Part shown: in pieces, positions 7,057 through 32,598 of the stretch | Numbering within the stretch: the stretch's first letter is position 1 | How the letters are laid out: each line of letters begins with the position of its first letter | Source of the DNA: Arcobacter sp. | GTDB lineage: Bacteria > Campylobacterota > Campylobacteria > Campylobacterales > Arcobacteraceae | NCBI GenBank assembly: GCA_003252105.1 | Contig: QKDL01000050.1 | Location: forward strand, 1-64,000 | Direction: 5' to 3' | Length of the DNA: 64,000 nt | Translations under genes and position numbers: made by a program | Notes under the pieces: model-generated | What the model was told of the DNA's origin: nothing | Seen by the model: only the letters and a program-made list of their open reading frames with translations | The model's database searches: none

Positions 7057-7058
7057 TT

Positions 7059-10534: not shown

Positions 10535-10542
10535 GAGAAGTT

Positions 10543-10818
10543 ATGAACGGAAATAATGTACTTTTAGTTCTTCAAGCAGTTGAAGAAGCAAAACCAATGG
10601 TTGAAGCAATTAAAAAAGATAATCCAGGTGTGATTATACAAAATGAACCAGCAATGATAAAAATAACTTGTCCTAGTAAACTTACAGTTAAAGCTGAGAC
10701 TATGGAAGAGCTTATTGGTAGAGAGTGGGATCCTCAAGAGTTACAACTATGTTTAGTAACACTTGCAGGAAATGTTGATGAAGATTATGATCATTTTACA
10801 ATTTATTGGGATAACTAG
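10543..10818 (+). CDS. dmpM: Phenol hydroxylase effector protein DmpM
   Basis: This 91-residue protein has the size and pattern of MmoB/DmpM effector proteins (NVLLVLQAVEEAKPMVEAIK at the start, a central strand PAMIKITCPSKLTV). These cofactorless proteins bind the hydroxylase and tune substrate access and catalysis. It has an AGGAGAAG ribosome site and lies 9 bp before dmpN in the conserved K-L-M-N-O-P order. Confidence 0.92.
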   Translation: MNGNNVLLVLQAVEEAKPMVEAIKKDNPGVIIQNEPAMIKITCPSKLTVKAETMEELIGREWDPQELQLCLVTLAGNVDEDYDHFTIYWDN

Positions 10819-10827
10819 GAGCTTATT

Positions 10828-12348: not shown

Positions 12349-12360
12349 GAAGGAGAAAAA

Positions 12361-12726
12361 ATGGCAACAAAATTTATTGGAAAATATGAACCAGAATCAA
12401 AAGATAGAATTGAAAATTTTCATGGAAATATAGTGGTATATGTTGGATGGGATAGACATAGAATGATTAATTCAGCTATGGCATTTCCACTTCCTCCTGC
12501 TATGCCTTTTGGTGCATTGTTGAATGATGTTTTACCATCTTGTTATAAAGATCATCCAGATTTTGAAAAACTTGATTGGAATGAAACTGAGATTAATTGG
12601 CAGTTAAATGGGAAACCATTTACTCCAAATATAGAAAAATCCTTAGAAGAGAATGGTATTGACCATAAATCTTTAATTCAATTTGAAACACCAACTCTTA
12701 GAGGATTAAACGGTTTAGGAATGTAA
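12361..12726 (+). CDS. dmpO: Phenol hydroxylase gamma subunit DmpO
   Basis: This 121-residue protein is the small third subunit of the hydroxylase. It has the expected length, the ferredoxin-like phrase FHGNIVVYVGWDRHRM near the N-terminus and AMPFGALLNDVLPSCY in the middle, as in DmpO. It has an AAGGAGA ribosome site and is separated from dmpP by 1 bp. It stabilises the (DmpL-N-O)2 hydroxylase. Confidence 0.92.
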   Translation: MATKFIGKYEPESKDRIENFHGNIVVYVGWDRHRMINSAMAFPLPPAMPFGALLNDVLPSCYKDHPDFEKLDWNETEINWQLNGKPFTPNIEKSLEENGIDHKSLIQFETPTLRGLNGLGM

Positions 12727-12727
12727 G

Positions 12728-13786
12728 ATGAGTTATACAGTTGAAATAGAACCAACAGGTGATGTTATTGAGGTACAAGAGGATCAAACAATCCTTGATG
12801 CAGCATTAAGACAAGGGGTATATTTACCCCATGCCTGCAATCATGGATTATGTGGTACTTGTAAAGTTGAACTTCTAGAAGGAGAGGTTGATCATGGAGA
12901 TGCTTCTCCATTTGCTTTGATGGATATGGAAAGAGATGAAGGTAAATGTTTAGCTTGTACAGCAAAACCTAAAAGTGATTGTGCAATCGAAGCAGATATT
13001 GATGAGGATGAAGATGCTAGAACTATTCCTGTAAAAGATTTCGAAGCAACTGTTATTGAAGTAAAAGATTTAACCCCTAGAATAAAAGGGATAGTTTTAG
13101 AACTAAATGAGCCTATGGATTTTCAAGCTGGACAATATGTGCAATACCATGTACCAGGATTTAAAGAAGCCAGAGCTTTTTCAATTGCAAGTTCACCCAT
13201 CAATGGTAAAATTATAGAGTTAAATATCTCTTTAGTTCCTGATGGAAAAGCTACTCCTTGGATACATGAAAATACAAAAGTTGGAGATAAAACTATAATC
13301 TCTGGTCCTTTTGGAAGATTTTTTGTAAAAGAATCAGCAAAAAAACCTATGTTGTTTTTTGCAGGAGGTTCAGGATTGTCAAGTCCAAAATCTATGATTG
13401 AAGATCTGCTTGAAAGAGGTTGTGAAGAATCAATCACACTTTTTCATGGAGCAAGAAACCAAGAAGAACTTTATTATGCAAATAAGTTTATGGAGTATGA
13501 AAAAGAGTATAAAAACTTTAGATATGTTCCTGTTTTATCTGATAAAGAGGCAACAAATTGGGATGGAGAGATTGGATATCTAAATGATATAGCAATAAAA
13601 ACATACGATAATAACTTCACTGGACATAAAGCATATCTATGTGGACCGCCTGCGATGCTTGATGTGTGTATAACTGCACTTATGAGAGGAAGATTATATG
13701 AAAGAGATATTCATATAGAAAAATTCTTTTCAAAAGCAGATTTAGATGCACAAAATCAAAAAAGCCCACTTTTTAAATCTTTATAA
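12728..13786 (+). CDS. dmpP: Phenol hydroxylase reductase DmpP
   Basis: This 352-residue reductase carries NADH electrons to the DmpN diiron site. The N-terminal plant-type 2Fe-2S ferredoxin has Cys37, Cys42, Cys45 and Cys77 (CNHGLCGTC and CLAC). An FAD domain follows (RAFSIASSP), then an NAD domain (FAGGSGLSSP; CGPPAMLDV). Its length is typical. A strong terminator follows directly, which ends the operon. Confidence 0.95.
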   Translation: MSYTVEIEPTGDVIEVQEDQTILDAALRQGVYLPHACNHGLCGTCKVELLEGEVDHGDASPFALMDMERDEGKCLACTAKPKSDCAIEADIDEDEDARTIPVKDFEATVIEVKDLTPRIKGIVLELNEPMDFQAGQYVQYHVPGFKEARAFSIASSPINGKIIELNISLVPDGKATPWIHENTKVGDKTIISGPFGRFFVKESAKKPMLFFAGGSGLSSPKSMIEDLLERGCEESITLFHGARNQEELYYANKFMEYEKEYKNFRYVPVLSDKEATNWDGEIGYLNDIAIKTYDNNFTGHKAYLCGPPAMLDVCITALMRGRLYERDIHIEKFFSKADLDAQNQKSPLFKSL

Positions 13787-16336: not shown

Positions 16337-17485
16337 ATGAGAAGAGTTTTAAAATTGGCAACAGGTTTAATAGGTTTATTTTTAATTTGTTCTACGGCAA
16401 ATGCAAAAGATACTATTAAGATTGGTGCATTGGTTGCTGCAACTGGTCCAGCATCATTTTTAGGTGATCCTGAATTAAAAACACTTGAGTTGTATGTTGA
16501 TAAAATAAATAAGGCTGGTGGAGTTTTAGGTAAAGAACTAAAGCTTATCTCTTACGATACTGGTGCTAATCCTAAAAATGCAACAACTTTTATCAAAAGA
16601 CTTATAAAACAAGATGAAGTAGTTGCTGTTATAGGAGGATCAGCATCAGGAGAAACAATGGCTATTATTCCATTTATTGAAAAAGCAAGAATTCCTTTAG
16701 TTTCTATGGCTGGTTCAATTGAGATTGTACAACCAACAAAAAAATATGTATTTAAAACTCCAGCTACTGATAGAATGGCATGTCAAAAAATCTTTAAGTA
16801 TTTAAAATCAAAAGCAAAAACAAATGTTGCTTTGATTTCTGGAAATGGTGGATTTGGTAAATCAATGAGAACGCAATGTAAAGAAGTAGCGAGTGACTAT
16901 GGAATTAATATTGTTGCAGATGAAACATATGGACCAAAAGATACAGATATGACAGCTCAATTAACAAAGATAAAATCTTTAGATAATGTACAAGCTGTTG
17001 TTAATCCAGGTTTTGGGCAAGGACCGGGTATTGTTACTAAAAACTTCAAACAATTAGGTATGACTCAAACATTAGTACAATCACATGGTGTTGCTTCTAA
17101 AAAATTTATTGAGTTGACAGGAGATTCTAGTGAGGGTGTTATTGTAGCTTCTCCACCAGTTGTTGTTGCTTCTTTATTGGAGGATGCAAATCCTATTAAA
17201 AAAATTGCACTAGATTATATCAAAGAGTATGAAGGTAAATACAATACTTCTGTTTCTACATTTGGTGGATATGCTTATGATGCACTAAATTTAATAATTG
17301 ATGCAATAAAAAAATCAAATTCTGATAAACCAAAAGATATTAGAGATGCAATTGAGCAAACTACAGGTTACCCAGGTTTAAATGGTATATTTAACATTAA
17401 TAAAAATGATCACTTAGGATTAGATATTGATTCAAGTATTAAAATGTTAGTTATAAAAAATGGTGATTGGGCATTAGCAGAGTAA
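16337..17485 (+). CDS. Periplasmic substrate-binding protein, Liv-type ABC importer 1
   Basis: This 382-residue type I periplasmic binding protein has an N-terminal signal peptide (ends near STANA-KD, residue ~24) followed by the LivJ-like start IKIGALVAATGPASFLGDPE. It begins a five-gene HAAT/Liv-type transporter operon and a downstream crotonase. Such systems import branched-chain amino acids but also aromatic acids. The phenylacetate genes downstream and the TGCTAT repeat upstream suggest phenylacetate or a related aromatic acid as substrate. That substrate is inferred. Confidence 0.88.
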   Translation: MRRVLKLATGLIGLFLICSTANAKDTIKIGALVAATGPASFLGDPELKTLELYVDKINKAGGVLGKELKLISYDTGANPKNATTFIKRLIKQDEVVAVIGGSASGETMAIIPFIEKARIPLVSMAGSIEIVQPTKKYVFKTPATDRMACQKIFKYLKSKAKTNVALISGNGGFGKSMRTQCKEVASDYGINIVADETYGPKDTDMTAQLTKIKSLDNVQAVVNPGFGQGPGIVTKNFKQLGMTQTLVQSHGVASKKFIELTGDSSEGVIVASPPVVVASLLEDANPIKKIALDYIKEYEGKYNTSVSTFGGYAYDALNLIIDAIKKSNSDKPKDIRDAIEQTTGYPGLNGIFNINKNDHLGLDIDSSIKMLVIKNGDWALAE

Positions 17486-17489
17486 GAAA

Positions 17490-18359
17490 ATGGTTGAATT
17501 ATTACAATACTCATTTGGAGGTTTAACAGTTGGATTTATTTATGCCTTAGTTGGTTTGGGATTCACTGTTATATATAACTCTAGTAAAATTATAAACTTC
17601 TCGCAAGGGGAGTTTGTAATGGTAGGGGGAATGTCAGCAGTATTTTTATCATACGCTAAATTCCCATTTGTTTTAGCATTTCCTTTTGCAATTATTATAT
17701 CTGCACTTATAGGGTATATGCTTTTTAAATTGATATCTATGTCTAGTAACTCTTCAGTTACATCGTTAATTATTTTAACACTAGGTTATTCTATTTTTGT
17801 AAGAGGGGCTTCTCAGGTAGTATTTGATAAACAAATGCATACTTTACCATCATTTATAAGTGATACACCAATTTCTATATTTGGTGCAACTATAACTCCT
17901 CAAGCAATTCTAGTAATTGTTGTTTCACTTTGTATTGTTGTTGGATTATATTATTTATTTAACAAGACAAAAATAGGGAAAGCAATGTTGGCAACTGCTG
18001 ATAATAAAGATGCAGCAAAATTTGTTGGTATCTCTGTTAAGAAAATATTGATTATAAATTTTATGATTAGTGCATCAATTGCAGCAATAGGTGGAATAGT
18101 GCTAACACCAATTACATCAACAAATTATGAAATTGGAGTTATGTTAGGTCTTAAGGGATTTTGTGCAGCTATTATTGGTGGTATAGGTAATCCTTTTGGT
18201 GCAGTATTTGGAGGAGTTCTACTTGGAATTTTAGAATCTTTCGTTGCTGGTTATTTAAGTAGTGAATATAAAGATGCAGTAGCATTTATAGTATTACTTT
18301 TAATTTTATTCTTTTTCCCAGGTGGTATTTTTGGGGCTAAGAAATCAACAAGAGTGTAG
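17490..18359 (+). CDS. LivH-type ABC permease (importer 1)
   Basis: This 289-residue protein has about eight transmembrane helices and LivH-like blocks: GFIYALVGLGFTVIYN at the start and GGIGNPFGAVFGGVLLGILE near the C-terminus. It lies 4 bp after the binding protein. It forms the membrane channel with the LivM-type partner that follows. The ribosome site is weak (AGTAAGAA), so coupling with the gene before it is likely. Confidence 0.9.
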   Translation: MVELLQYSFGGLTVGFIYALVGLGFTVIYNSSKIINFSQGEFVMVGGMSAVFLSYAKFPFVLAFPFAIIISALIGYMLFKLISMSSNSSVTSLIILTLGYSIFVRGASQVVFDKQMHTLPSFISDTPISIFGATITPQAILVIVVSLCIVVGLYYLFNKTKIGKAMLATADNKDAAKFVGISVKKILIINFMISASIAAIGGIVLTPITSTNYEIGVMLGLKGFCAAIIGGIGNPFGAVFGGVLLGILESFVAGYLSSEYKDAVAFIVLLLILFFFPGGIFGAKKSTRV

Positions 18360-18367
18360 GTATTATC

Positions 18368-19333
18368 ATGGGAAATAAAGGTGTATTTTTAGATCGAGGG
18401 ATAGTTACCACTATAATAATTTTGTGTGTAATACCTTTTTTATTACAAAACTCATTTCATTATGAGATAGCAATTATGTGTATGTTAAATGCAGTTATAT
18501 GTATTGGACTAAATATGTTAGTTGGTTATACTGGTCAAATCTCTTTAGGTCATGGGGCATTTGCTGGACTTGGAGCTTATGTGGCAGTAATATTATCGAC
18601 TACATTTGAATTTGATCCAGTTTTAAGCATCATAATTTCAGTTGTTGTTTTAGCTGTATTAGCATTTTTAATATCAAAACCTGTATTAAAGTTAGAAGGT
18701 CATTATCTTGCTATGGCAACACTAGCTGTGGGTATTATTATCTCACTTGTATTAAGAAATGAAGATCAATTAACTGGTGGACCAGATGGTATGAGTGTTA
18801 GTCAATTTCATATTTTAGGTTATGTATTTGAAAATGATATGCAATGGTATGTGTTATCAGCAATATTTTTAGTATTTTCTATTTGGGCATTACAAAATGT
18901 GGTGAATTCACCTTTTGGAAGAATCTTAAGATGTATTAGAGATTCTGAAACTGCTGCTAAAGCTATTGGTGCAGATGTACCATATTATAAAACTTATGTT
19001 TTTGTGATATCTGTTGTAATTGCAACCATTGCTGGTTCTTTATACTCATACTATACAGGATTTATATCTCCAGAAGAATCAGGATTTATGAGATCTATTC
19101 AGCTTGTAGTTATGATTGTATTTGGTGGACTTGGAAGAATTTATGGGGCTGTATTTGGTGCAATTATTATCACAGCACTTCCTCAGTTCTTGACATTTTT
19201 ACACGATTATGAACAAATGGTTTTTGGTGCAATTATTATTTTTGTAATGATTTTTATGCCAAAAGGGATAGTTTCAATCTTTGATACTTTAAAAGTGGAT
19301 AAAACTGAATTGAAAAAAAAGGATAATGCATGA
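18368..19333 (+). CDS. LivM-type ABC permease (importer 1)
   Basis: This 321-residue permease has about nine transmembrane helices with typical LivM motifs: NMLVGYTGQISLGHGAFAGLGAY near residue 50 and IVFGGLGRIYGAVFGAI near 255. It overlaps the ATPase gene that follows by 4 bp (ATGA). Together with the LivH-type protein it makes the translocation path. Confidence 0.9.
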   Translation: MGNKGVFLDRGIVTTIIILCVIPFLLQNSFHYEIAIMCMLNAVICIGLNMLVGYTGQISLGHGAFAGLGAYVAVILSTTFEFDPVLSIIISVVVLAVLAFLISKPVLKLEGHYLAMATLAVGIIISLVLRNEDQLTGGPDGMSVSQFHILGYVFENDMQWYVLSAIFLVFSIWALQNVVNSPFGRILRCIRDSETAAKAIGADVPYYKTYVFVISVVIATIAGSLYSYYTGFISPEESGFMRSIQLVVMIVFGGLGRIYGAVFGAIIITALPQFLTFLHDYEQMVFGAIIIFVMIFMPKGIVSIFDTLKVDKTELKKKDNA

Positions 19334-20100
19334 GTTTATTAAAAATTAATGGAATATCTAAAAGTTTTGGTGGATTAAAAGCAGTTGATGATATCTCTTT
19401 TGAAGTTCAAGAAGGGACAATTCATGCTTTGATTGGTCCCAATGGAGCGGGGAAAACAACTTTGGTAAATATGATATCTGGAATCTATACAGTTGATAGT
19501 GGAGATATATATTTCAATGATGAAAATATTACAAATGTTCCTACATATAAACTTGTAAATAAACATATTATGAGAACATTTCAAAATCTTGAGATTTGTG
19601 AAAATATGACTGTTATGGAAAATGTTCTTTTAGGTTTCAATATTAATATGAATAAAAGTCTTTTAAAGTGTTCTTTTCAGTTTGAATCAATTATTGATGA
19701 TGAAGATAAGTTTACACATATTGCCTTATCTCACCTAAAAAGAGTTGGTTTAGAAAATGTAGCTTATAAAATGTGTAGTGATTTATCTTATGGTGTTTTG
19801 AAAAAAGTTGAAATTGTAAGAGCTTTAGCTATTAATCCAAAACTTTTACTTTTAGATGAACCTGTTGCAGGTTTAAATGGTACAGAAACAGCAGAGATTT
19901 CAAAGATTATAAAAGAGATTGCAAAAGAGGGTGTAACAGTTCTTTTAATTGAGCATGATATGAAAATGATAATGGGTATCTCAGATAAAATCACTGTTGT
20001 TAATTTTGGAGTAAAACTTGCAGAGGGTACTCCTGCTGAAATCTCATCTAATCCAGATGTAATTAAAGCATATTTAGGTGAAGGATCATTGCATGAATAA
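19330..20100 (+). CDS. LivG-type ABC ATPase (importer 1)
   Basis: This 256-residue ATPase has Walker A (GPNGAGKTT), a modified signature (LSYGVLKKVEIVRAL) and Walker B (LLLLDEPVAGL), plus the switch His (LIEHDMKMI). The extended loop after Walker A and the size place it with LivG/BraF. It overlaps the permease by 4 bp. It works as a heterodimer with the LivF-type protein. Confidence 0.92.
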   Translation: MSLLKINGISKSFGGLKAVDDISFEVQEGTIHALIGPNGAGKTTLVNMISGIYTVDSGDIYFNDENITNVPTYKLVNKHIMRTFQNLEICENMTVMENVLLGFNINMNKSLLKCSFQFESIIDDEDKFTHIALSHLKRVGLENVAYKMCSDLSYGVLKKVEIVRALAINPKLLLLDEPVAGLNGTETAEISKIIKEIAKEGVTVLLIEHDMKMIMGISDKITVVNFGVKLAEGTPAEISSNPDVIKAYLGEGSLHE

Positions 20101-20818
20101 AGAGGGTTTAGTTTTAAATATAGAAAAATTAGATTGTCATTATGGACATATCCATGTTCTTCAAGATATCAATCTAAAAGTACATAGGGGTGAAATAGTT
20201 GCTTTAATTGGTGCAAATGGAGCAGGTAAAACAACTCTTATGAGAACTATTTCAGGATTGAAAGAACAAAATAAAGGTGAAATTATATTTAAAGAAAATA
20301 TTGATATCACAGATACATCTCCTGAAAAAAGAGTAAAACTTGGAATTGCACAAGTACCAGAGGGAAGAGAACTATTTAAATCATTAACTGTAGAAGATAA
20401 TTTAATGCTTGGGGCATTTACTAGAAATAATAAAGATGAAATAAAAAAAGATTTAGATTTTGTATATGAAAAGTTTCCTATATTATATGAAAAAAGAGGT
20501 TTGATATCAGGAAATCTATCTGGTGGTCAACAACAAATGCTTGCAATTGGAAGAGCTTTGATGAGTAAACCAGATTTATTATTGATGGATGAACCATCAA
20601 TGGGTTTAGCTCCTGTAATAGTAGAAGAGATTTTTGCATTTATTGAAGAGCTTAAAAAACTTCATATGACAGTATTTTTAGTTGAACAAAATTCATATTT
20701 TGCTTTAACAATCTCTAATAGAGCATATGTTTTAGAAAATGGTGAAATTGTTTTAAGTGGTAATTCTGAAGATTTATTAAAAGATCCAAGAGTTAAAGAA
20801 GCATATTTAGGAATGTAA
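20093..20818 (+). CDS. LivF-type ABC ATPase (importer 1)
   Basis: This 241-residue ATPase has Walker A (GANGAGKTT), the signature LSGGQQQM and Walker B (LLLMDEPSMGLAP), as in LivF/BraG. I chose the ATG at 20093 because GAAGGA lies about 7 nt upstream. A GTG at 20078 is in frame but has no ribosome site. The start overlaps the stop of the LivG-type gene by 8 bp. The crotonase gene begins on the base after its stop. Confidence 0.92.
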   Translation: MNKEGLVLNIEKLDCHYGHIHVLQDINLKVHRGEIVALIGANGAGKTTLMRTISGLKEQNKGEIIFKENIDITDTSPEKRVKLGIAQVPEGRELFKSLTVEDNLMLGAFTRNNKDEIKKDLDFVYEKFPILYEKRGLISGNLSGGQQQMLAIGRALMSKPDLLLMDEPSMGLAPVIVEEIFAFIEELKKLHMTVFLVEQNSYFALTISNRAYVLENGEIVLSGNSEDLLKDPRVKEAYLGM

Positions 20819-21598
20819 ATGAACAATAAATATATATTAGTAGAAAAACTAGAAAATGGTGTAGGTGTGATTACCCTAAATAGACCAGAAGTTTATAATG
20901 CATTATGTACCCAATTATTAAATGAAGTATCAGCAGCAATAAAAGATTTTGACAATGATACAAATATTGGTGCTATTGTATTAACAGGTGGAAATAAAGT
21001 CTTTGCAGCAGGTGCAGATATAAAAGAGATGGCTAATCTTGATTTTGCAAGTGCATATAATAATGAGTTTGTAAAAAAAGAGTGGCAAACTCTCGAAAAA
21101 CATACAAAACCTATAGTTGCAGCTGTAGCAGGATTTGCACTAGGTGGTGGTTGTGAAATGTCAATGCTATGTGATATTGTTGTTTGTGATACAACTGCAA
21201 AATTTGGTCAACCAGAAGTCAAAATAGGAACAATGCCTGGAGCTGGTGGTACACAAAGACTAACTAAAGCAGTTGGAAAAGCAAAAGCAATGTATATGTG
21301 TTTAACTGGTGATATGATTGATTCCAAAGAGGCAAAAGATTATGGATTGGTTGCATCTGTCTTTGAAGAAGGTACAGTAGTTGAAGAGGCAATCAAAATT
21401 GCATCTAAGATTGCATCAATGAGTCAACCTGTTGTAAGACTAATAAAAGAATCAATAAATAACTCTTATGAATCATCTTTACAAGCTGGACTTGAAGCTG
21501 AACGAAAATCTTTTTATACAACATTAGCATTAGATGATAGAACAGAAGGAATGAATGCTTTTGTAGAAAAAAGAAAAGCAAAATTCTCAAATAAATAA
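20819..21598 (+). CDS. Enoyl-CoA hydratase (crotonase family)
   Basis: This 259-residue crotonase has the oxyanion-hole segment AGADIKEM and both hydratase glutamates (FALGGGCEMSM and GQPEVKIGTMPGAGGTQR), so it should be an active hydratase. It starts on the base after the ABC ATPase stop, so it is part of the uptake operon. A second, similar crotonase (PaaF) is encoded at 31828. Having an extra one here fits a need for an additional CoA-thioester hydration, for example ring opening or the later beta-oxidation step. The exact substrate is unknown. A strong hairpin follows. Confidence 0.85.
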   Translation: MNNKYILVEKLENGVGVITLNRPEVYNALCTQLLNEVSAAIKDFDNDTNIGAIVLTGGNKVFAAGADIKEMANLDFASAYNNEFVKKEWQTLEKHTKPIVAAVAGFALGGGCEMSMLCDIVVCDTTAKFGQPEVKIGTMPGAGGTQRLTKAVGKAKAMYMCLTGDMIDSKEAKDYGLVASVFEEGTVVEEAIKIASKIASMSQPVVRLIKESINNSYESSLQAGLEAERKSFYTTLALDDRTEGMNAFVEKRKAKFSNK

Positions 21599-21895: not shown

Positions 21896-22924
21896 ATGGC
21901 AGGTTCAAAAGAAAAGCTAGCTGGAACTATGGAGTTCCCACCAGCAACACCACAGCCAAATGTTTATCCATTAAGTTGGGAAAATGTAACTACAAAATTA
22001 CAAGAAGTTTGGGAATCATCACAAAAAGAGTATTGGGATCCTGAAAAACTACCTTGGGATACATTTGATGTTACAAAATACACATGGGAGCAAAGAGAGT
22101 CTATAGCATATTGGTGGACTATTCTTTCAGTATTTGATGCATCTGCACCACCCGTATTTGCTTCTGCATTTATTAAAACATATGAATTACATGAGGAAGA
22201 TGTTGTTAGAAGATGTTTCTTTTCTGTTACAAGAGATGAGCAAAACCATGAACAAATGTGTGGTTTAGTTATAACTAAAATGTTAGAACATCCAGATCCT
22301 TTAACTTATGAGCCTAAAACTGATATTGGTAGAAGATTACAAAAAAATGCTAAATGGTTATATTACAATGGTGGAAGATATTGGGATGGATTTAAAAATG
22401 CAGTTCCTAAATATTCTTTAGCTGTATTATTCTCTTCTTTCCTAATGGGTGAAATTGCAGCAGCAACAATTTTTCATCAAATGGCAGCAGGATGTACTGA
22501 ATTAGTATTTAAAGAAGGGTTCTCAAAAATTGGTAAAGATGAAGGTAGACATATGGCTATCGTTTTAACATTGATGGAAAGAGATTATCCTAAATTAGCT
22601 CAAGAAGATAAAGAGATTATTACTAAACAAATTAGAGCAGGGTATCTATTCTTATCTGCTGTATTATTTGAGCCACCAACAGAGTTCTGGGATATTCCTG
22701 AAGATTTTATTGAGAATCAAAGAGAAGGTGAAAGATTAGCTAGAGAAGCTGGTTTCTTTATTCCAGATTATGAAACAAAAAAAGAGAACTGGAGAAAAGC
22801 TATGCTTAACTTAAAAGGTGTATTAGATAAATATGATACAGAATTCCCAGCAATTCCTGAAGTTGGAATTACAGGAAGAGAAATAAGTGATATTGATATG
22901 GAAGATATTATACCAGTATTCTAA
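21896..22924 (+). CDS. Stand-alone R2-like diiron oxygenase, candidate PaaABC replacement
   Basis: This 342-residue helical protein has two ExxH motifs with ferritin/R2-like spacing: Glu115/His118 (RDEQNHE) and Glu216/His219 (KDEGRHM). Glu186 lies 30 residues before the second pair (MGEIAAATIF). Asp81, 34 before the first, is a possible sixth ligand. It does not look like PaaA, PaaC, BoxB or DmpN. It is followed after 38 bp by its own 2Fe-2S/FAD reductase, and the pair lies between an aromatic uptake operon and paaX-paaKJIHGF, which here lack paaABCDE. I infer an aromatic or aryl-CoA oxygenase; phenylacetyl-CoA is the leading candidate. AurF-like oxygenases or a fatty-acyl desaturase are alternatives. 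Confidence 0.7.
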   Translation: MAGSKEKLAGTMEFPPATPQPNVYPLSWENVTTKLQEVWESSQKEYWDPEKLPWDTFDVTKYTWEQRESIAYWWTILSVFDASAPPVFASAFIKTYELHEEDVVRRCFFSVTRDEQNHEQMCGLVITKMLEHPDPLTYEPKTDIGRRLQKNAKWLYYNGGRYWDGFKNAVPKYSLAVLFSSFLMGEIAAATIFHQMAAGCTELVFKEGFSKIGKDEGRHMAIVLTLMERDYPKLAQEDKEIITKQIRAGYLFLSAVLFEPPTEFWDIPEDFIENQREGERLAREAGFFIPDYETKKENWRKAMLNLKGVLDKYDTEFPAIPEVGITGREISDIDMEDIIPVF

Positions 22925-22962
22925 TATCACCAAGTAAAAAATTATAACCAGGAATTTAAGAT

Positions 22963-23979
22963 ATGAAAAAGATTATTATACAACCATCAGGAAAAGAGAT
23001 AGCATGCCCTTCGGGGGAAACAGTATTATCTGTTCTTGAAAAACAAGGTTATGCCTTACCAAATAACTGTAGAGCTGGAGCCTGTGGTGAATGTAAAATA
23101 AAAGTTTTAAGTGGAGAATTTGACCAAGGTTTTATTATGGATATGGCTTTATCTCAAGAAGACAGAGATTTGGGATATGGCTTGATGTGTATGGCTAAAC
23201 CTATTTCAGATGTATTGGAAATAGAGTTTGGTACAGCAGATGCGCAACCTAAACTGTTCCCACCTATTGAGAATTCTTGGCATATTGTAACTGATAAGAT
23301 TCAAAGAACGCCTAATTTGATTGAACTTAAATTATCTCCATTGGGACAAAGTATTAAATATTGGCCTGGACAATATGCAATGATAGGGGATGAGGCATCT
23401 GGACATCCTCTTAGACCTTATTCTATTGCAAATCCTCCTCGTTCTGATGGAGAGTTGTCTTTTATTATAACAAAAGAACCAAATGGTAAAACCAGCCCTT
23501 GGATACATGATGAGGTAAATATTGGTGATAATATCAAGATTAATGGTCCTTATGGTACATTTTTAGGTGATCCATCTGTTGATACACCAATTTTATGTTT
23601 AGCTTCTGGATCTGGCTTAGCTCCAATCTTGTCATTGTTGAATGCTTATTTAAGTAGAGGAAATAAAAACCCTGTAACTTTACTTTTTTCAGCTAAAACA
23701 AAAGCTGATTTATTACATCATGGTAAATTAAAATATTTAGAATCTAGATATGTAAACTTTAAATATAAATACACTTTAACCCAAGAGAGTAACAAAGATG
23801 GTGGTTTAGAGGGTAGAATCGATAAAGTATTACCTTTATTAATACCTGAATTGTCTAATTACTCAGTTTATATAGCTGGTGGTGTATCATTTGTAGGTTC
23901 GTGTAAAAATATTGTTAGAGAACTTGGTGCAAAAGATGAATTAGTCCATATGGAAGAATACTTTGCACAACAAGTATAA
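22963..23979 (+). CDS. 2Fe-2S/FAD/NAD oxygenase reductase
   Basis: This 338-residue electron-transfer protein has an N-terminal plant-type ferredoxin (Cys36, Cys41, Cys44, Cys76; CRAGACGEC and LMCMAKP), then an FAD domain (HPLRPYSIANPP), then an NAD domain (CLASGSGLAPILSLL). This ferredoxin-first order is that of DmpP, MmoC and BenC. PaaE has the opposite order, so this is not PaaE. It surely serves the adjacent diiron protein. It ends just before a convergent hairpin shared with paaX. Confidence 0.9.
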   Translation: MKKIIIQPSGKEIACPSGETVLSVLEKQGYALPNNCRAGACGECKIKVLSGEFDQGFIMDMALSQEDRDLGYGLMCMAKPISDVLEIEFGTADAQPKLFPPIENSWHIVTDKIQRTPNLIELKLSPLGQSIKYWPGQYAMIGDEASGHPLRPYSIANPPRSDGELSFIITKEPNGKTSPWIHDEVNIGDNIKINGPYGTFLGDPSVDTPILCLASGSGLAPILSLLNAYLSRGNKNPVTLLFSAKTKADLLHHGKLKYLESRYVNFKYKYTLTQESNKDGGLEGRIDKVLPLLIPELSNYSVYIAGGVSFVGSCKNIVRELGAKDELVHMEEYFAQQV

Positions 23980-24066: not shown

Positions 24067-25005
24067 TTATTTTAATCCTCCAAATCTATTATAATAAAAC
24101 TTATCTAACTTAGGAGTATTACCTCCTACAGTTAGTAAATTCTCTTGTACATAAGCTTTTCCTTGATTATGAATTGCTACATAAAGAGATTCAACAAGTG
24201 AAGCAGCTGATTTACCTAACCAATCACTAGAGATAAATTGATTTCCAAGTTTTGGATCATATAAAACAGCTCTTCTATATTCATGAATCAATAGAATACT
24301 AATTATAAAACATTGTCTAGGTGTAAACTCTTCAATTGGAGTTTTAAGAGAATATATTCTTCTAAATATAGTAATAAAATCTCTATATCTATTTTCAACA
24401 TCTTTTAAATCCCAAAATTTATTTACCATCTCTTTTGTGATCTCTTTATTCATTGGCATATGAAGAGGACCTTTTATAAGAATCACTTTATTTTGAAGCT
24501 CATTTTTGATTAAAATATCTTGTATATATTCCATTTTGTAGTGTGGGTGCATATATGTATATTTTGATGGGTTAGCAAATCCCTCTTTTTTTAGAGTTTT
24601 ACTAAGTTCAAACTCTTCATCTTGTTCAAGGCTTGAAGTAAATAAAACAATCCAGTCGTTATCATTTTCTTGTTCATCATAAGCATATACACGATAATGA
24701 GCTTTAATAAACTTATCTACAGCCATATCACTTATAGTATAATAACTTTCACGACCAAATTTTTGAGAAGTTAGCCATCCCTCTTTTGTAAGTCTGAAAA
24801 TTGAAGTTCTTGTAAGTTTTTCACTTACTTCAAACTCTTCCATAAACTTAACAAGAGAACCTAACCAAATTGTTCCACCAAAAGGAAAAACTGTATCACC
24901 AAAAAAAGTTATGATTAAAGATTTTGCTTTTGGAGAGGTTTCTTCTAATAATGATTTTATATAAATATCTACTTCGTTTTCATTTACATCGTTATTCAAG
25001 AACAT
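24067..25005 (-). CDS. paaX: PaaX-family transcriptional repressor
   Basis: This protein of about 310 residues has the PaaX N-terminal winged helix (SLIITFFGDTVFPFGGTIWL; LTRTSIFRLTKEGWL; GRESYYTIS) and the family's central and C-terminal domains. PaaX proteins repress phenylacetate genes and release DNA on binding phenylacetyl-CoA (established for the family). The ATG at 25005 is only 1 nt from AAGGA; the in-frame TTG at 24999, 6 nt away, may be the true start. It is the last gene on the strand that carries paaK to paaF but is separated from them by unknown genes. It supports phenylacetate as the pathway substrate. Confidence 0.9.
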   Translation of the reverse strand: MFLNNDVNENEVDIYIKSLLEETSPKAKSLIITFFGDTVFPFGGTIWLGSLVKFMEEFEVSEKLTRTSIFRLTKEGWLTSQKFGRESYYTISDMAVDKFIKAHYRVYAYDEQENDNDWIVLFTSSLEQDEEFELSKTLKKEGFANPSKYTYMHPHYKMEYIQDILIKNELQNKVILIKGPLHMPMNKEITKEMVNKFWDLKDVENRYRDFITIFRRIYSLKTPIEEFTPRQCFIISILLIHEYRRAVLYDPKLGNQFISSDWLGKSAASLVESLYVAIHNQGKAYVQENLLTVGGNTPKLDKFYYNRFGGLK

Positions 25006-25405: not shown

Positions 25406-25444
25406 TAAAATTATTTTATTAATAATTTATAGTTTTACTAAAAT
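25399..25444. terminator. Bidirectional terminator
   Basis: A perfect 12-bp inverted repeat, ATTTTAGTAAAA / TTTTACTAAAAT, overlaps the stop codons of the two convergent hypothetical genes. Confidence 0.6.
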
Positions 25445-26006
25445 GGATATATTCATTAATATTTCCCACTAGAGTTTTAAGAGTCTTTACCCCTTCTTTT
25501 TTATCCCAAACACAGTTTTGTGTGATAAATTCTAGTTCAGGTTCTTCATATCTTTTTGTATAGTTTGATAAATTTAGTAGTATCTCATTTACACTAGTTG
25601 ATTTTGTAAGAACATTTACCTCTCCTAGTCTAAAGATATTATGGTACTTCAAACAATATTCAAAGGTATCAATATTTTCATAAATTAATGCAGTATCCCA
25701 AAAATACAATTCATCTTCATATATTTTTAACACAATATATCCATGGGTCAAAATATGGTTATCAAGTTTGTCTATTTTAAAAGCCAAATCTTTTAATTCT
25801 TCAAAAGAGAAATTTTTTATAAAACCATAACCATCTGTTGATTTGTTATAAGTAAATCCTAAATCCAGTAATTTTTTATGTTCAAAGTTCTTGGGATATT
25901 TTTGTGTCCCAAGACTTTGTTGAGAACTAATTACATTAGAAATAAAATCATTTGTATTAAGTTCATCTTTTATTTGTGTTTCATATTTTACTTCTAAATA
26001 GTTCAT
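25419..26006 (-). CDS. Hypothetical protein at the end of the paa operon
   Basis: This 195-residue protein contains alternating strands and helices and one notable phrase, YIVLKIYEDELYFWDTALIYENI. It lies 8 bp after the quinone reductase stop and so is probably co-transcribed with paaK and the other paa genes. I recognise no family and no catalytic motif. A role in phenylacetate metabolism is possible only by location. Confidence 0.5.
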   Translation of the reverse strand: MNYLEVKYETQIKDELNTNDFISNVISSQQSLGTQKYPKNFEHKKLLDLGFTYNKSTDGYGFIKNFSFEELKDLAFKIDKLDNHILTHGYIVLKIYEDELYFWDTALIYENIDTFEYCLKYHNIFRLGEVNVLTKSTSVNEILLNLSNYTKRYEEPELEFITQNCVWDKKEGVKTLKTLVGNINEYIHFSKTINY

Positions 26007-26556: not shown

Positions 26557-27858
26557 CTAGTTTTTTCTTTTATCAACTACTCTTTGAGCTTTTCCTTGGC
26601 TTCTTGGAACTTCACCATGTTTTTTAACATTTACTTTTACAGATACTCCAATACCTGATTTTATTTTATGAACTAGAGTTTTTATAGCTTCACCTATTTC
26701 TCTTTCACTTGCAGTTAGTTCTGGTTCTATATCTATAGCTAAATCGTCCATATTACCAGTTCTTGAAATTACAATTTGATAATAAGGAGAGAACGCTTCA
26801 ATTTTCATCAATATCTCTTCAATTTGTGATGGGAATACATTTACCCCTCTAATAATCATCATATCATCTGTTCTAGCGTGAATTCTTTTCATTTTACGCA
26901 TATTTAAAAGATCACCTTTATATAGTGTAGATAAATCTTTTGTTCTATATCTAATGATTGGTAAAGCTTCTTTTGTCAAAGTTGTTAAAACTAATTCGCC
27001 TTCTTGCTCATCAGGGATAGGATTAAAGGTATCTCTATCAACAATTTCAGGATAAAAGTGATCTTCCCAAACATATAAATCTCCTCTATCTTCTAACACT
27101 TCACAAGCAACACCTGGACCCATCATTTCAGATAAACCATAAATATCAAGTGCATCAATTCCAACTTTCTCTTCAATAGTTCTTTTCATCTCCATAGACC
27201 AAGGTTCAGCTCCAAAAATACCAACTTTAAGTGCAGTTTCTTTTGGATCTATTCCTCTGTTTTCCATCTCTTCAATGATATTTAACATATATGATGGTGT
27301 AACCATTATTACAGTTGCTTTGAAGTCATTTATTAAAGTAACTTGTTTATCTGTAAAACCACCAGAAGCAGGAACTACTGTACATCCAAGTTTTTCTGCA
27401 CCATAATGAGCACCTAATCCACCTGTAAATAAACCATATCCATAAGAGACATGAACTATATCCCCTTTTCCTCCACCTGCAAGTCTTAGTGATCTTGCAA
27501 CTAAATCAGACCAAGTATCAACATCTTGTCTTGTATATCCTACAACTGTTGGTTTACCAGTTGTTCCACTTGATGCATGAAGTCTTACAATATCACTCAT
27601 TGGATTTGCAAACATCCCAAATGGATAGTTTAATCTTAAATCCTCTTTTGTAGTAAAAGGGAACTTATTGATATCTTCTAAAAAAGTAAAATCATCAGGA
27701 TGAACACCATGTTCATCCCACTTCTTTTTATAATAGGGAACAAATGAATAAGCTCTTAACAATGTGTGTTTCATTCTTCTTGTTTGTAAAGCAATAAGTT
27801 CATCTTTGGATATAAGAACTTTTGGATAATAACTTACAGTTTTTCTTTTGTTTTCCAT
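26557..27858 (-). CDS. paaK: Phenylacetate-CoA ligase PaaK
   Basis: This 433-residue adenylate-forming ligase activates phenylacetate to phenylacetyl-CoA with ATP. It has the phosphate loop SSGTTGKPTVVGYT near residue 94, YGLSEMMGPG near 240, and the C-terminal conserved Lys region VPRSQGKAQRV. Length and motifs match PaaK rather than benzoate-CoA ligase (~520 residues). It lies 9 bp after paaJ in the order F-G-H-I-J-K. Other arylacetates could be substrates. Confidence 0.93.
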   Translation of the reverse strand: MENKRKTVSYYPKVLISKDELIALQTRRMKHTLLRAYSFVPYYKKKWDEHGVHPDDFTFLEDINKFPFTTKEDLRLNYPFGMFANPMSDIVRLHASSGTTGKPTVVGYTRQDVDTWSDLVARSLRLAGGGKGDIVHVSYGYGLFTGGLGAHYGAEKLGCTVVPASGGFTDKQVTLINDFKATVIMVTPSYMLNIIEEMENRGIDPKETALKVGIFGAEPWSMEMKRTIEEKVGIDALDIYGLSEMMGPGVACEVLEDRGDLYVWEDHFYPEIVDRDTFNPIPDEQEGELVLTTLTKEALPIIRYRTKDLSTLYKGDLLNMRKMKRIHARTDDMMIIRGVNVFPSQIEEILMKIEAFSPYYQIVISRTGNMDDLAIDIEPELTASEREIGEAIKTLVHKIKSGIGVSVKVNVKKHGEVPRSQGKAQRVVDKRKN

Positions 27859-27867
27859 TTTATCTCC

Positions 27868-29085
27868 CTAGTCTCTATTTAAATTTTCTATTATCATAGA
27901 TATACCTTGTCCTACACCAATACACATAGTACAAAGTCCATATCTTCCTTTTGTTTGTTCTAAATGGTTCAGTGCTGTCATAACAAGTCTAGTTCCACTC
28001 ATCCCTAATGGATGACCTAAAGAGATAGCCCCACCATTTGGGTTAACTTTTGGATCATCATCTTTTAATCCTAAACCTCTAATTGTTGCTAAACCTTGTG
28101 AAGCAAAAGCTTCATTTAGTTCAATTACATCCATATCATCTATACTCATACCCGTTTTTTCTAAAATCTTTTTAGATGAGTAAAGTGGTCCTATTCCCAT
28201 GATTTTTGGAGGAACACCAGCTACAGCCATCATTACAATTTTTGCTTTTGGTTTTAGATTATATTTCTCAACAGCATTTTTTGAGGCAATTATCATTGCT
28301 CCTGCACCATCATTAACCCCTGAGGCATTACCAGCTGTTACTGTTCCTCCCTCTTTTTTAAAAGGGGTATTTAGTGTTGAAAGTTTTTCTAATGTTGTAT
28401 TTGGTTTAGGGTATTCATCTTTATCCACTATTAAATCATCTTGTTTTCTTCTTTTTACAACAACAGGTGTTATCTCTTTTTTGAAAAAACCTTTTTCCAT
28501 AGCTACTTTGCATTTTTGTTGTGAATTAAATGCAAACTTATCCTGATCTTCTCTTGTAACTTTGAATTCTTCAGCTACATTTTCTCCAGTTTCAGGCATC
28601 GAGTCTGTTCCAAACATCTCCTTCATTTTAGGATTTACAAATCTCCAACCAATAGTTGTATCAAATACACTATTTGCTCTTGTAAATGCAGTATCAGCTT
28701 TAGGCATTACAAAAGGTGCTCTAGACATTGATTCAACACCACCTGCAATAATTAAATCACATTCACCAGCTTTTATTGCTCGTGCTGCTATACCAATTGC
28801 ATCCATTCCTGACCCACAAAGTCTATTGATTGTAGTACCACCACTTTGATAAGGAAGACCAGCTAATAGTGCAGACATTTTTGCAACATTTCTATTATCT
28901 TCACCAGCTTGATTTGCACATCCAAAAATTACATCATCAAGCTCTTCCCAGTTTATAGAAGGATTATTTTTCATTAAATAGTTAAGTGGAATAGCACCCA
29001 TATCATCAGGTCTAATAGAAGATAATGAACCTCCATAAGAACCAATAGGTGTTCTAATATAATCTATAATATATGCTTCATTCAT
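27868..29085 (-). CDS. paaJ: Beta-ketoadipyl-CoA thiolase PaaJ
   Basis: This 405-residue thiolase has the nucleophile Cys in NRLCGSGMDAIG (near residue 90), the His in GGAISLGHPLGMSG, and the second Cys in CTMCIGVGQG. In this context it cleaves 3-oxoadipyl-CoA to succinyl-CoA and acetyl-CoA and also acts on the dehydro-suberyl intermediate. It overlaps the paaI stop by 4 bp. The sequence is full length. Confidence 0.92.
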   Translation of the reverse strand: MNEAYIIDYIRTPIGSYGGSLSSIRPDDMGAIPLNYLMKNNPSINWEELDDVIFGCANQAGEDNRNVAKMSALLAGLPYQSGGTTINRLCGSGMDAIGIAARAIKAGECDLIIAGGVESMSRAPFVMPKADTAFTRANSVFDTTIGWRFVNPKMKEMFGTDSMPETGENVAEEFKVTREDQDKFAFNSQQKCKVAMEKGFFKKEITPVVVKRRKQDDLIVDKDEYPKPNTTLEKLSTLNTPFKKEGGTVTAGNASGVNDGAGAMIIASKNAVEKYNLKPKAKIVMMAVAGVPPKIMGIGPLYSSKKILEKTGMSIDDMDVIELNEAFASQGLATIRGLGLKDDDPKVNPNGGAISLGHPLGMSGTRLVMTALNHLEQTKGRYGLCTMCIGVGQGISMIIENLNRD

Positions 29086-29519
29086 TGTACTTCCTTTTCT
29101 TCTAATATAGTGCCTTTTACAGCTTTTGATTTACCAGTGAAAAATGCGACTGATTCAAATTTTTGATTTACAACTAAGATGTCGTATATTCCATTTCTAC
29201 CTTTTAAATATTTTTCTGTAGCAGTTGCATATAGTGTGTCTCCTAATAGAGCAGGTTTTACAAAACTTATATCACAAGCAGCAGCTACTGTTGCAATATT
29301 TCTTGAGTTACAAGCAATAGCAAAAGCTGCGTCAGCAAAAGAAAAAATTGCACCACCTTGACAAGTTCCATGACCATTTAGCATCTTTTGGGTAACTTCC
29401 ATCTCCATTTTTGAATAGCCTTCTTCAACTTCTAACAATTTCATACCTAGGGTATGTTCAAATTTTGTATCAGCCATCATTTTTTCTGCAACTTTATAAC
29501 AAAGTTTTGTCTCATTCAT
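29082..29519 (-). CDS. paaI: Phenylacetyl-CoA pathway thioesterase PaaI
   Basis: This 145-residue hotdog thioesterase has the PaaI motif GHGTCQGGAIFSFADAAFA, with the catalytic Asp and Gly-rich turn. It releases CoA from dead-end ring-hydroxylated thioesters. I prefer the ATG at 29519 to the GTG at 29531, because AGGTGGGA lies 8 nt before that ATG. The start overlaps the paaH stop by 8 bp. Confidence 0.88.
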   Translation of the reverse strand: MNETKLCYKVAEKMMADTKFEHTLGMKLLEVEEGYSKMEMEVTQKMLNGHGTCQGGAIFSFADAAFAIACNSRNIATVAAACDISFVKPALLGDTLYATATEKYLKGRNGIYDILVVNQKFESVAFFTGKSKAVKGTILEEKEVQ

Positions 29520-31032
29520 AATATTTCCCACCTATTATTGATTTTTCGATAATACCTCTATCTGCTCTGTATCTAGTATCTTTGTAAAATGATTCTAAAT
29601 TGTTTAATGTTTCTAATACGAAATCAATACCTAATTTATCTGCCCATTTAAATGGACCTATAGGATAATTTACACCATTTTCCATAGCAATATCAACACT
29701 AAATTCATCACAAACACCATTTGTCACTGTTGAACTTGCTTCATTTACTAACATACAGACAGTTCTTGACATAACCATTGCTGGTGAATCTTTTATTATT
29801 AGAGTTTTTTTACCAATTTGTGCAAAAAGTGCTGCAATATTTTTTTCAACATGTTTTTGTGCAATCAGTGAAGTTGCGATAGTTATAGAGTCAGTTAGAG
29901 CATAATCTATACTGATATCAAATTGGGCTATATTTTTTTCATTTAATTCTTTTGAAATTTGGCTAGCCATTTTACCTTTTGTTAAAAATAATTTTATGTC
30001 ATTAAACTCAATATATCCATCACCTTCAACTTCGATTACATTAATCTCAGCTTTTTTAAATAAAGGTATTAGTTCATTTGCTACTCCTAAAGAACCATAT
30101 ACAGTAATAGTTGATATTTTATTGTTTGAGGGAACTACTTGCGTATATTCATCTCTACTTAATTGTTTTCCCTCTTCATATTTATAAAAACCAATACCTG
30201 ATTTTCTTCCAAGTAATCCTGCTTGAGCAAACTCTTGTTGCGTCAATGATGGATTAAATCTTGAATCTTGATAGTATGAGTTAAAAGTTGATTCAGTAAC
30301 TGAATAGTTTGTATCGTTTCCAATTAAATCCATTAGTTCAAATGGACCCATTCTGAATCTACCTGATGATCTTACTATTTCATCAATTGTTGCAAAAGTT
30401 GAAACTCCCTCTTCATATAATCTTAGTGCTTCAGCATAAAACGGTCTAGCAATTCTATTTACTATAAAACCTGGACTAGATTTTACAAAAACTGCTTTTT
30501 TACCCCATGAGTTAGCTAGATTATAAACATCTTCTACAAGTTGTTTGTCACTTTGTAATCCAGAGATTACTTCAACTAATTTCATAATAGGTGCTGGATT
30601 AAAAAAATGCATACCTACCATTCTATCAGGTCTTTTAAGACCATTTGCCAAAGCAGAAATAGAAATAGATGAAGTATTTGATGCAATACAAACATCACCA
30701 CAAATATCTTCAAGTTGTTTAAATATCTCTTGTTTTATCTCTTTGTTTTCAATGATAGCTTCAATTATCAAATCACAAGGAGCTAAATCTTCTATTTTCA
30801 TAGTAGGATTCAATAAAGATATAGTTTTATCTTTTAGCTCTTGAGTCATTTTCCCTTTTTCAACAAGTTTCGATAACTCTTTTTCATTGATAGTCATTGC
30901 ATTGTCAACTGCACCATCCCAATTATCATATAGTATTACTTTATGACCTGCTTTTGCTGCAACTTGAGCAATACCTCTACCCATAATACCTGCACCAACT
31001 ATTCCTATAATTGAATTTGAATCTATTCTCAT
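29512..31032 (-). CDS. paaH: 3-hydroxyadipyl-CoA dehydrogenase PaaH
   Basis: This 506-residue NAD-dependent dehydrogenase has the Rossmann motif GIVGAGIMGRGIAQ at residue 10, ASNTSSIS and MHFFNPAPIMKLVEV typical of the HAD family, and a second C-terminal dimerisation domain. Length and layout match PaaH. It oxidises 3-hydroxyadipyl-CoA to 3-oxoadipyl-CoA. It is 1 bp from paaG. Confidence 0.92.
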   Translation of the reverse strand: MRIDSNSIIGIVGAGIMGRGIAQVAAKAGHKVILYDNWDGAVDNAMTINEKELSKLVEKGKMTQELKDKTISLLNPTMKIEDLAPCDLIIEAIIENKEIKQEIFKQLEDICGDVCIASNTSSISISALANGLKRPDRMVGMHFFNPAPIMKLVEVISGLQSDKQLVEDVYNLANSWGKKAVFVKSSPGFIVNRIARPFYAEALRLYEEGVSTFATIDEIVRSSGRFRMGPFELMDLIGNDTNYSVTESTFNSYYQDSRFNPSLTQQEFAQAGLLGRKSGIGFYKYEEGKQLSRDEYTQVVPSNNKISTITVYGSLGVANELIPLFKKAEINVIEVEGDGYIEFNDIKLFLTKGKMASQISKELNEKNIAQFDISIDYALTDSITIATSLIAQKHVEKNIAALFAQIGKKTLIIKDSPAMVMSRTVCMLVNEASSTVTNGVCDEFSVDIAMENGVNYPIGPFKWADKLGIDFVLETLNNLESFYKDTRYRADRGIIEKSIIGGKYYE

Positions 31033-31033
31033 A

Positions 31034-31825
31034 TTAGTTTCCTTTAAAATTAGGAGTTCTTTTTTCTAAAAATGCTGAAACTCCTTCTTTATAATCATTT
31101 GAGTGACCAGCTGCTCTTTGTAGATTTTTTTCTAATTCTAATTGTTCATCTAATGAGTTTTCAACAGATTGATTTAATGCTTTTTTTATTAAAGACAATC
31201 CATATGTTGGTGCAGTAGAAAAATGAATAGCTAGTTTTTGAACCTCTTCATCAATAGTTTCTATTGGATATACCCTAGAAATTAGTCCATATTCTAATGC
31301 AGTTTGTGCAGAAAGTTTATCACCTAACATACATAACTCTTTTGCTCTTGCCATTCCTACAAGTTGTGGTAAGAAGAAAGAGTTTCCACTATCAGGCACT
31401 AATCCAATTTTACAAAAGGCTTGTATAAATGAGACTTTTTCATTTGCAATTACAAAGTCACAAGCTAATGCAATCCCAACTCCAGCACCTGCTGCTACAC
31501 CATTTACTTTACAAATAACTGGTATCTCTAAGTTATATATTGTTTTAATTAGTGGATTATATTTTCTTTCAATTGATTCACCTAAATCAAGTTTTTCATC
31601 ACTATTATTAACTGATCTATCGTTTAAATCTTGTCCAGCACAAAAAGCTTTTCCTTCTCCTGTGATGATTAATACTCTAATAGTGCTATCTTTTTTTATA
31701 TTGTTAAAAGCATTCTTTAATTCAGCATGCATTTGTTCATTTAATGAATTAAATACTTCTGGTCTATTTAATGTTAAAGTTGCTATACCGTTATTGTTTT
31801 CATATTTTATTGTTTCATATAACAT
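31034..31825 (-). CDS. paaG: Oxepin-CoA-forming isomerase PaaG
   Basis: This 263-residue crotonase superfamily protein has AGQDLNDRSV near the oxyanion hole and AAGAGVGIALACDFV followed by CKIGLVPDSGNSFFLPQLVG, the PaaG signature. The position equivalent to the first hydratase Glu is not Glu, consistent with an isomerase. It converts the ring epoxide-CoA to oxepin-CoA and also shifts double bonds later. It overlaps no neighbour but is 2 bp from paaF. Its presence implies that an epoxide-CoA is formed, so an epoxidase must exist somewhere. Confidence 0.9.
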   Translation of the reverse strand: MLYETIKYENNNGIATLTLNRPEVFNSLNEQMHAELKNAFNNIKKDSTIRVLIITGEGKAFCAGQDLNDRSVNNSDEKLDLGESIERKYNPLIKTIYNLEIPVICKVNGVAAGAGVGIALACDFVIANEKVSFIQAFCKIGLVPDSGNSFFLPQLVGMARAKELCMLGDKLSAQTALEYGLISRVYPIETIDEEVQKLAIHFSTAPTYGLSLIKKALNQSVENSLDEQLELEKNLQRAAGHSNDYKEGVSAFLEKRTPNFKGN

Positions 31826-31827
31826 TA

Positions 31828-32598
31828 TTATTGTCCTTTAAAATTTGGTTTTCTTTTTTCTTTGAAGGCACTAATTCCCTCTTTTTTATCACTACTAGAT
31901 AATATTCCAGAAAAAATTGTCTTTTCATATTTAAGTGATGCACTTAAGCCTGTTTCATAAGAAGCAAGAACAGAACTTTTTATTGCATTTACTGCCAAAG
32001 GAGATTTTTTGGCAATTTTGTTAGCTATTTCAATTGATCTTATGATTGTAGTTTGAACAGGTACAACCTCTGATACTAAATTCATTTTTTTTGCAGTTTT
32101 TGCATCAATAAAATCTCCAGTTAAAAGCATCAGCATTGCATTTGATTTTCCCATAGCTTTTACTGTTCTTTGTGTGCCTCCAGCTCCTGGCATTATTCCT
32201 AAATTGATTTCAGGTTGCCCAAACTGTGCATTGTCACCAGCGATAATAATGTCACAATGCATTGCAAGTTCACAACCTCCACCTAAACAAAACCCATTTA
32301 CACTTGCAATGATAGGTTTTTTAAAATCTTTAATTGTTTCCCAGTAAGATGTTCTTACATCATTTATTGATTCAAATGTATTTTTTATTTCAAGTTCATT
32401 TATATCTGCACCAGCTGCAAACACTTTTTCTCCCCCTGTTAAGATTACACATCTTATCTCATCAGAAGAAGATGATAAAACCTCTGCAATCTCTTTTAAA
32501 GTATTTGTTCTTAATGCATTAAAAACCGATTCTCTATTAATTGTAATTATTAATATATGTTGGTTTTCAGTCTCAACTTTAATATCTTTAAAGCTCAT
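31828..32598 (-). CDS. paaF: 2,3-dehydroadipyl-CoA hydratase PaaF
   Basis: This 256-residue crotonase has AGADINELE, the hydratase glutamates (FCLGGGCELAM and GQPEINLGIMPGAGGTQR), and the full family length. It hydrates 2,3-dehydroadipyl-CoA. It is the first gene of the leftward paaFGHIJK operon and faces paaN across a 205-bp divergent intergenic region with the TGCTAT repeat. It is similar to the crotonase at 20819. Confidence 0.9.
   Translation of the reverse strand: MSFKDIKVETENQHILIITINRESVFNALRTNTLKEIAEVLSSSSDEIRCVILTGGEKVFAAGADINELEIKNTFESINDVRTSYWETIKDFKKPIIASVNGFCLGGGCELAMHCDIIIAGDNAQFGQPEINLGIMPGAGGTQRTVKAMGKSNAMLMLLTGDFIDAKTAKKMNLVSEVVPVQTTIIRSIEIANKIAKKSPLAVNAIKSSVLASYETGLSASLKYEKTIFSGILSSSDKKEGISAFKEKRKPNFKGQ

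Follow-up and report, generated by a model that had tools for sequence, protein, structure and literature searches.

Which enzyme forms the epoxide in a phenylacetate (paa) gene cluster that encodes PaaG and none of the subunits of PaaABCDE? The question is raised by a 64,000-nucleotide stretch of an Arcobacter sp. contig (GenBank QKDL01000050.1, positions 1 to 64,000; hereafter, the window), for which an earlier note, made from the sequence alone, had listed PaaK, PaaF, PaaG, PaaH, PaaI, PaaJ, PaaN, PaaY and PaaX, and no PaaA, B, C, D or E. This inventory held. The presence of PaaG implies an epoxide-CoA substrate, and the note had proposed that a one-component diiron epoxidase (DIIRON) with its own reductase (RED) stands in place of PaaABCDE.

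The paa cluster and the DIIRON–RED pair

The features of the window relevant to this proposal are the following:

16337–20818, plus strand: branched-chain-type ABC transporter (LivKHMGF-like, recognized from ORFs and translations), also conserved next to the pair in loci of Campylobacterota, Magnetospirillum and Sedimenticola; it likely serves aromatic acid uptake
20819–21598, plus strand: crotonase-type enoyl-CoA hydratase (PF00378, E-value 5e-81), directly upstream of DIIRON, an adjacency kept in Campylobacterota loci
21896–22924, plus strand: DIIRON, R2-like diiron protein of 342 aa, proposed phenylacetyl-CoA epoxidase
22963–23979, plus strand: RED, Fer2-FAD-NAD reductase of 338 aa, proposed electron donor to DIIRON
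24067–25005, minus strand: PaaX-type repressor (TIGR02277, 236.6 bits vs. a cut-off of 264.6; PF07848 and PF08223 over cut-off)
26557–27858, minus strand: PaaK phenylacetate-CoA ligase (TIGR02155, 620 bits vs. 646)
27868–29085, minus strand: PaaJ-type thiolase (homolog of E. coli PaaJ, found in paa clusters across loci)
29082–29531, minus strand: PaaI-type thioesterase (homology and cluster position)
29512–31032, minus strand: PaaH 3-hydroxyacyl-CoA dehydrogenase (TIGR02279, 563 bits vs. 669; PRK08268 over cut-off)
31034–31825, minus strand: PaaG epoxide isomerase (TIGR02280, 354.7 bits, over the cut-off of 345.2)
31828–32598, minus strand: PaaF-type hydratase (PRK09674 PaaF, 315.7 bits vs. 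371)
32804–34462, plus strand: PaaN aldehyde dehydrogenase for the ring-opened semialdehyde (TIGR02288, 729.8 bits, over the cut-off of 578.8)
34462–35055, plus strand: PaaY (TIGR02287, 261.8 bits vs. 319.6)

Seven proteins were scored against NCBIfam paa models, PaaK, F, G, H, N, X and Y. The curated cut-off is exceeded by PaaG and PaaN; for the other five, the corresponding model is the best or near-best match but its score stays below cut-off. No PaaZ-type oxepin-CoA hydrolase domain was detected in the window between 20819 and 35055; PaaN lacks the PaaZ hydratase domain, and the crotonase-type proteins near the pair score as ordinary hydratases, none of them being identified as an oxepin-CoA hydrolase. 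The same gap has been described in other bacteria by Price et al. (PMC9007349), who proposed a crotonase-type candidate. A 195-aa protein encoded on the minus strand at 25419–26006 has no Pfam match over cut-off; in several paa clusters of Campylobacterota (L009, L010, L011, L108, L132 and L133), it is kept with PaaX on one side and either a Flavodoxin_2 or a PaaK gene on the other. In addition, a phenol-hydroxylase-type multicomponent monooxygenase (DmpL, N, O and P-like) is encoded at 9539–13786, 8 kb upstream of the pair.

DIIRON and RED are encoded on the same strand, 38 bases apart. None of the Pfam, NCBIfam and PHROGs models matched DIIRON above cut-off, the nearest being AurF (PF11583; 16.4 bits vs. 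a cut-off of 29.6) and encapsulated ferritin (17.2 vs. 125), with R2-type models at 16 bits or less (NCBIfam R2 cut-off, 486). Ribonuc_red_sm (PF00268) gave no match in the Pfam search, the PaaA_PaaC profiles (PF05138 and TIGR02156) likewise did not match, the BoxB model TIGR03225 was absent among the NCBIfam matches, and a search of the PDB by sequence returned nothing significant. No significant relation to E. coli PaaA (probability, 0.6%) or to R2 was found by hhalign with a shallow alignment (Neff 1.5). In RED, the Fer2 (residues 5–80), FAD (115–200) and NAD (213–313) domains (PF00111, PF00970 and PF00175, respectively) are arranged in an order opposite to that of PaaE, in which the FAD/NAD domains come first and Fer2 is C-terminal; the earlier description of a ferredoxin-first reductase that is not PaaE-like thus held. 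The nearest NCBIfam models of RED are BenC/MmoC, below cut-off; BoxA is matched only weakly (28 bits).

The ligand set of DIIRON comprises Asp81, Glu115xxHis118, Glu186 and Glu216xxHis219, with all six residues invariant in 33 homologs and kept in Variovorax and Nonomuraea relatives of 46–48% identity; its spacing and pattern are those of an R2-type dimetal carboxylate protein. The 342-residue R2-like diiron protein of the earlier note is thereby confirmed; the five ligands it gave are correct, and its list was short by Asp81. In the AlphaFold2 model (mean pLDDT, 83.6; pTM, 0.84), core helices are predicted at residues 64–98, 102–130, 175–199 and 203–233, and the model meets the fold-level criteria for R2-like proteins, i.e., a four-helix core with D/E, ExxH, E and ExxH ligands. 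Structure comparison, which the note had asked for, yielded fold matches of the model to R2lox (VIA; Z 18.7 over 262 residues, 3.4 Å), R2 (VIA, Z about 18; Foldseek likewise) and the azoxy synthase VlmB (VIA, Z 17.2), with the AurF profile remaining below cut-off. At the position of the R2 radical tyrosine, four residues past His118, DIIRON homologs have an invariant cysteine (C122), the two positions being equated via motif spacing without structural superposition. The Arcobacter genome also encodes its own NrdB, beside an NrdA-like ORF. Because the radical tyrosine is missing and a separate NrdB is present, DIIRON is not regarded as a ribonucleotide reductase subunit; by its predicted anatomy, it is a candidate R2-fold oxygenase, the activity itself being inferred.

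Distribution of the pair and of PaaA

A complete paaABCDE elsewhere in the genome had been set beforehand as a finding that would refute the proposal. No match to PF05138 (PaaA/PaaC) was found anywhere in the 3.02-Mb Arcobacter assembly (92% complete), and the same assembly gave no BoxB-family match.

A scan with one genome per species confirmed 149 relatives of DIIRON, the best 80 of which were kept and are 75–97% identical over nearly the whole length. The hosts belong to Campylobacterota, Alpha-, Beta- and Gammaproteobacteria, Bdellovibrionota and other groups. RED follows downstream, on the strand of DIIRON, in 89 of 90 loci (median gap, 96 bases), and the pair, conserved in at least 80 loci, is more than a chance association. 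Some of the unexpected hosts are metagenome bins that may be mis-binned. One copy binned as Stygiobacter (Ignavibacteriota; L025:4115–5140) nests among Magnetospirillum copies with the same upstream neighbors, and this contig is likely mis-binned. The DIIRON homolog of an annotated Vitreoscilla plasmid is named "hypothetical protein" and is found just past paaZ in a cluster that also holds paaABCDE. A distant branch is formed by Variovorax copies (48–49% identity) accompanied by RED-like reductases. Their clusters encode a MaoC protein, an enoyl-CoA hydratase, a thiolase, a CoA ligase or CoA-activating enzymes and indolepyruvate ferredoxin oxidoreductase, as well as PaaN in one strain; this content suggests a wider family oxidizing arylacetyl-CoA esters. 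A relative from Nonomuraea gerenzanensis (46–48%; L091:11959–12981) has no adjacent RED homolog.

The pair is linked to phenylacetate genes. In 100 genomes of the order of Arcobacter, DIIRON was found in eight and PaaG in exactly the same eight; these do not represent eight independent events, because one cluster was passed on within Campylobacterota, by common descent or by transfer. Across all groups, PaaG was present in 51 of the 54 carrier genomes. In Marinospirillum, Nitrincola and Comamonas, the pair is located between paaK and paaABCDE in one gene run; in Sedimenticola, Telmatospirillum, Rhodospirillum, further MAGs and Campylobacterota, it lies within the paa cluster with no PaaABC nearby; in Magnetospirillum, it is about 90 kb away from the paa cluster.

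A genome-wide search of the 54 carriers revealed PaaA over cut-off in 29, no PaaA in 22, and partial or distant matches only in three. The 22 include all nine Campylobacterota carriers; six of the eight besides the Arcobacter genome are 96–100% complete, and one of the nine is a single contig with 100% completeness. On the DIIRON tree, the presence and absence of PaaA require six changes, at least three of which are forced by well-supported branches, so PaaA-less carriers arose more than once. The claim that the pair occurs "in place of" PaaABCDE is thus supported, and holds for 22 of the 54 carriers; it needs widening, as 29 have both systems, often in one gene run.

For a sample not chosen by DIIRON, 150 genomes were drawn evenly from the order of Magnetospirillum, and DIIRON was found in four of them, strict PaaA in three and PaaG in 33. 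The neighborhoods of all 33 PaaG genes were read. PaaG was rejected as a stand-alone pathway marker: in 19 of the 33 genomes, clusters are incomplete and both DIIRON and a PaaA-family protein are missing in the stretch read. Since PaaG alone is not diagnostic, complete clusters, defined by K, G, J and N (N/Z), were used instead. Such clusters were present in 12 of the 150 genomes: four of these genomes have DIIRON and no PaaA-family protein at an E-value of 1e-20 or better anywhere, and the other eight have a PaaA-family protein within the cluster and no DIIRON. With full independence of the genomes, which does not quite apply, disjoint sets at these margins would have a chance of 1 in 495. 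The clusters of the remaining 21 PaaG genomes are incomplete in the stretch read, two of them with a PaaA-family protein.

Proposed function and rival explanations

Taken together, it is likely that DIIRON and RED constitute a two-protein phenylacetyl-CoA 1,2-epoxidase that replaces PaaABCDE in some lineages and duplicates it in others. The ligand set, the predicted fold, the pairing with RED, the paa linkage and the absence of PaaA in 22 carriers are directly supported; the substrate, product, electron path and physiological role are inferred, and no biochemical data are available. The phenylacetyl-CoA substrate and 1,2-epoxide product named in the earlier note therefore still rest on gene context. 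In the proposed scheme, phenylacetyl-CoA made by PaaK would be attacked by DIIRON, whose diiron center, reduced by electrons passing from NAD(P)H through the FAD and 2Fe-2S cluster of RED, would activate O2 and add one oxygen atom to the ring. PaaG would then convert the epoxide to the oxepin, which the remaining Paa enzymes would open and degrade. The pair would act in PaaABCDE's stead in Campylobacterota and several other lineages, and as a second system alongside it elsewhere. Several points weigh against the epoxidase reading: an R2 fold does not reveal the substrate, no sequence relation between DIIRON and PaaA is detectable, and the Magnetospirillum pair lies far from the paa cluster. 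The main doubt comes from the 29 of 54 carriers in which PaaA occurs as well; the pair may have a task that PaaABCDE does not fulfil, and a different step is not excluded. It could serve as a reserve system with different oxygen requirements, or use a sister substrate.

A related substrate is the rival closest to this reading. The pair could act on another aryl-CoA or aryl compound (hydroxy- or methyl-phenylacetyl-CoA, or a phenylacetate precursor) and so widen the intake of the paa pathway, as the co-occurrence with PaaA, often in one gene run, and the distant branch in a CoA-ester cluster with other genes would allow. This is considered unlikely, as it would leave the complete paa clusters of the 22 PaaA-less carriers without an oxygenase, whereas the pair is the only recognizable oxygenase that these lineages retain in the cluster; the mutual exclusion of DIIRON and PaaA-family proteins in the 150-genome sample also speaks against it. 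There is even less support for a side or protective reaction, such as hydroxylation of phenylacetyl-CoA (e.g., ortho) or deoxygenation of surplus epoxide. It is favored by the position of the pair beside paaABCDE in many loci and by the report that PaaABCE both forms and removes the epoxide (Teufel et al. 2012, cited in PMC9765128), but it would be of little use without epoxide formation, and 22 genomes have the pair without PaaA.

It is similarly improbable that an unseen oxygenase performs the epoxidation, either the phenol-hydroxylase-type enzyme at 9539–13786 or an unrecognized one elsewhere, with DIIRON–RED as a passenger. The proximity of the DmpLNOP-like genes and the incompleteness of the Arcobacter assembly leave room for this, but loci L009–L013 of Campylobacterota have no DmpLNOP homologs in the roughly 10 kb around the pair, and conservation of gene neighbors across phyla is not expected of a passenger. 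Finally, the top fold matches (R2lox and R2) would point to a ligand-binding oxidase of the R2lox type or to the small subunit of ribonucleotide reductase; both can practically be ruled out in view of the invariant cysteine at the radical-tyrosine position, the genome's own NrdB, the lack of a significant sequence relation to R2 and the fixed pairing with a Fer2 reductase.

A bolder form of the epoxidase reading is favored here by a narrow margin: DIIRON proteins would form a widespread, undescribed family of arylacetyl-CoA epoxidases, each a single polypeptide of R2 fold served by its own ferredoxin-first reductase. This family would have taken the place of PaaABCDE on several independent occasions and would elsewhere provide a second system, possibly one for low oxygen. 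Low-oxygen operation in mostly microaerobic hosts is no more than a possibility, an impression drawn from organism names only. As for the claim that the pair is undescribed, no description was found in the open-licence literature searched, and publication elsewhere remains possible.

Known oxygenases and other cluster arrangements

PaaABC(D)E and DIIRON–RED are alike in the proposed reaction, in their position in the paa operon and in combining a diiron oxygenase with a 2Fe-2S flavin reductase. They differ in that PaaABC(D)E has a PaaA–PaaC core with PaaB, whereas DIIRON is one catalytic polypeptide with no sequence relation to PaaA. The BoxAB benzoyl-CoA 2,3-epoxidase consists of one catalytic diiron polypeptide and a separate reductase acting on an aryl-CoA substrate, a design shared with DIIRON–RED. 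BoxB is the subject of PMC5489048. The two systems are nevertheless distinguished by the lack of a TIGR03225 match in DIIRON, the weakness of the RED–BoxA match and the absence of a BoxB-family match in the genome. The ferritin-like dimetal oxygenases R2, R2lox, AurF and VlmB have the fold and ligand pattern in common with DIIRON, which shares about 12% identity with this group and differs in lacking the radical tyrosine, in its dedicated reductase gene and in its aryl-CoA gene context.

The aerobic breakdown of phenylacetate is a hub in the use of aromatic compounds. For the first oxygen attack, many bacteria, the Arcobacter-like one studied here among them, seem to rely on a two-protein iron enzyme, so far undescribed, that either substitutes for PaaABCDE or accompanies it. 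In a 2026 survey (PMC13186573), PaaA and PaaC were proposed as the genomic markers of the pathway, and clusters without them were assigned to "other configurations". If the epoxidase reading is true, PaaA-based genome surveys miss whole lineages, including Campylobacterota and Magnetospirillum, and a simpler two-protein system of CoA-bound ring epoxidation becomes available for comparison with PaaABCE and BoxAB.

A further arrangement was observed in complete paa clusters of Rhodospirillales-type genomes (L102, L106, L111, L113, L114, L117, L120, L121, L124 and L128), which encode a lone PF05138 protein of 255 aa (73 bits; 21–24% identical to E. coli PaaA). In L102, its gene (7517–8284) is accompanied by a flavodoxin gene (6834–7283), with no PaaB, C or E seen. 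It is possible that the lone PF05138 arrangement represents yet another form of the epoxidase.
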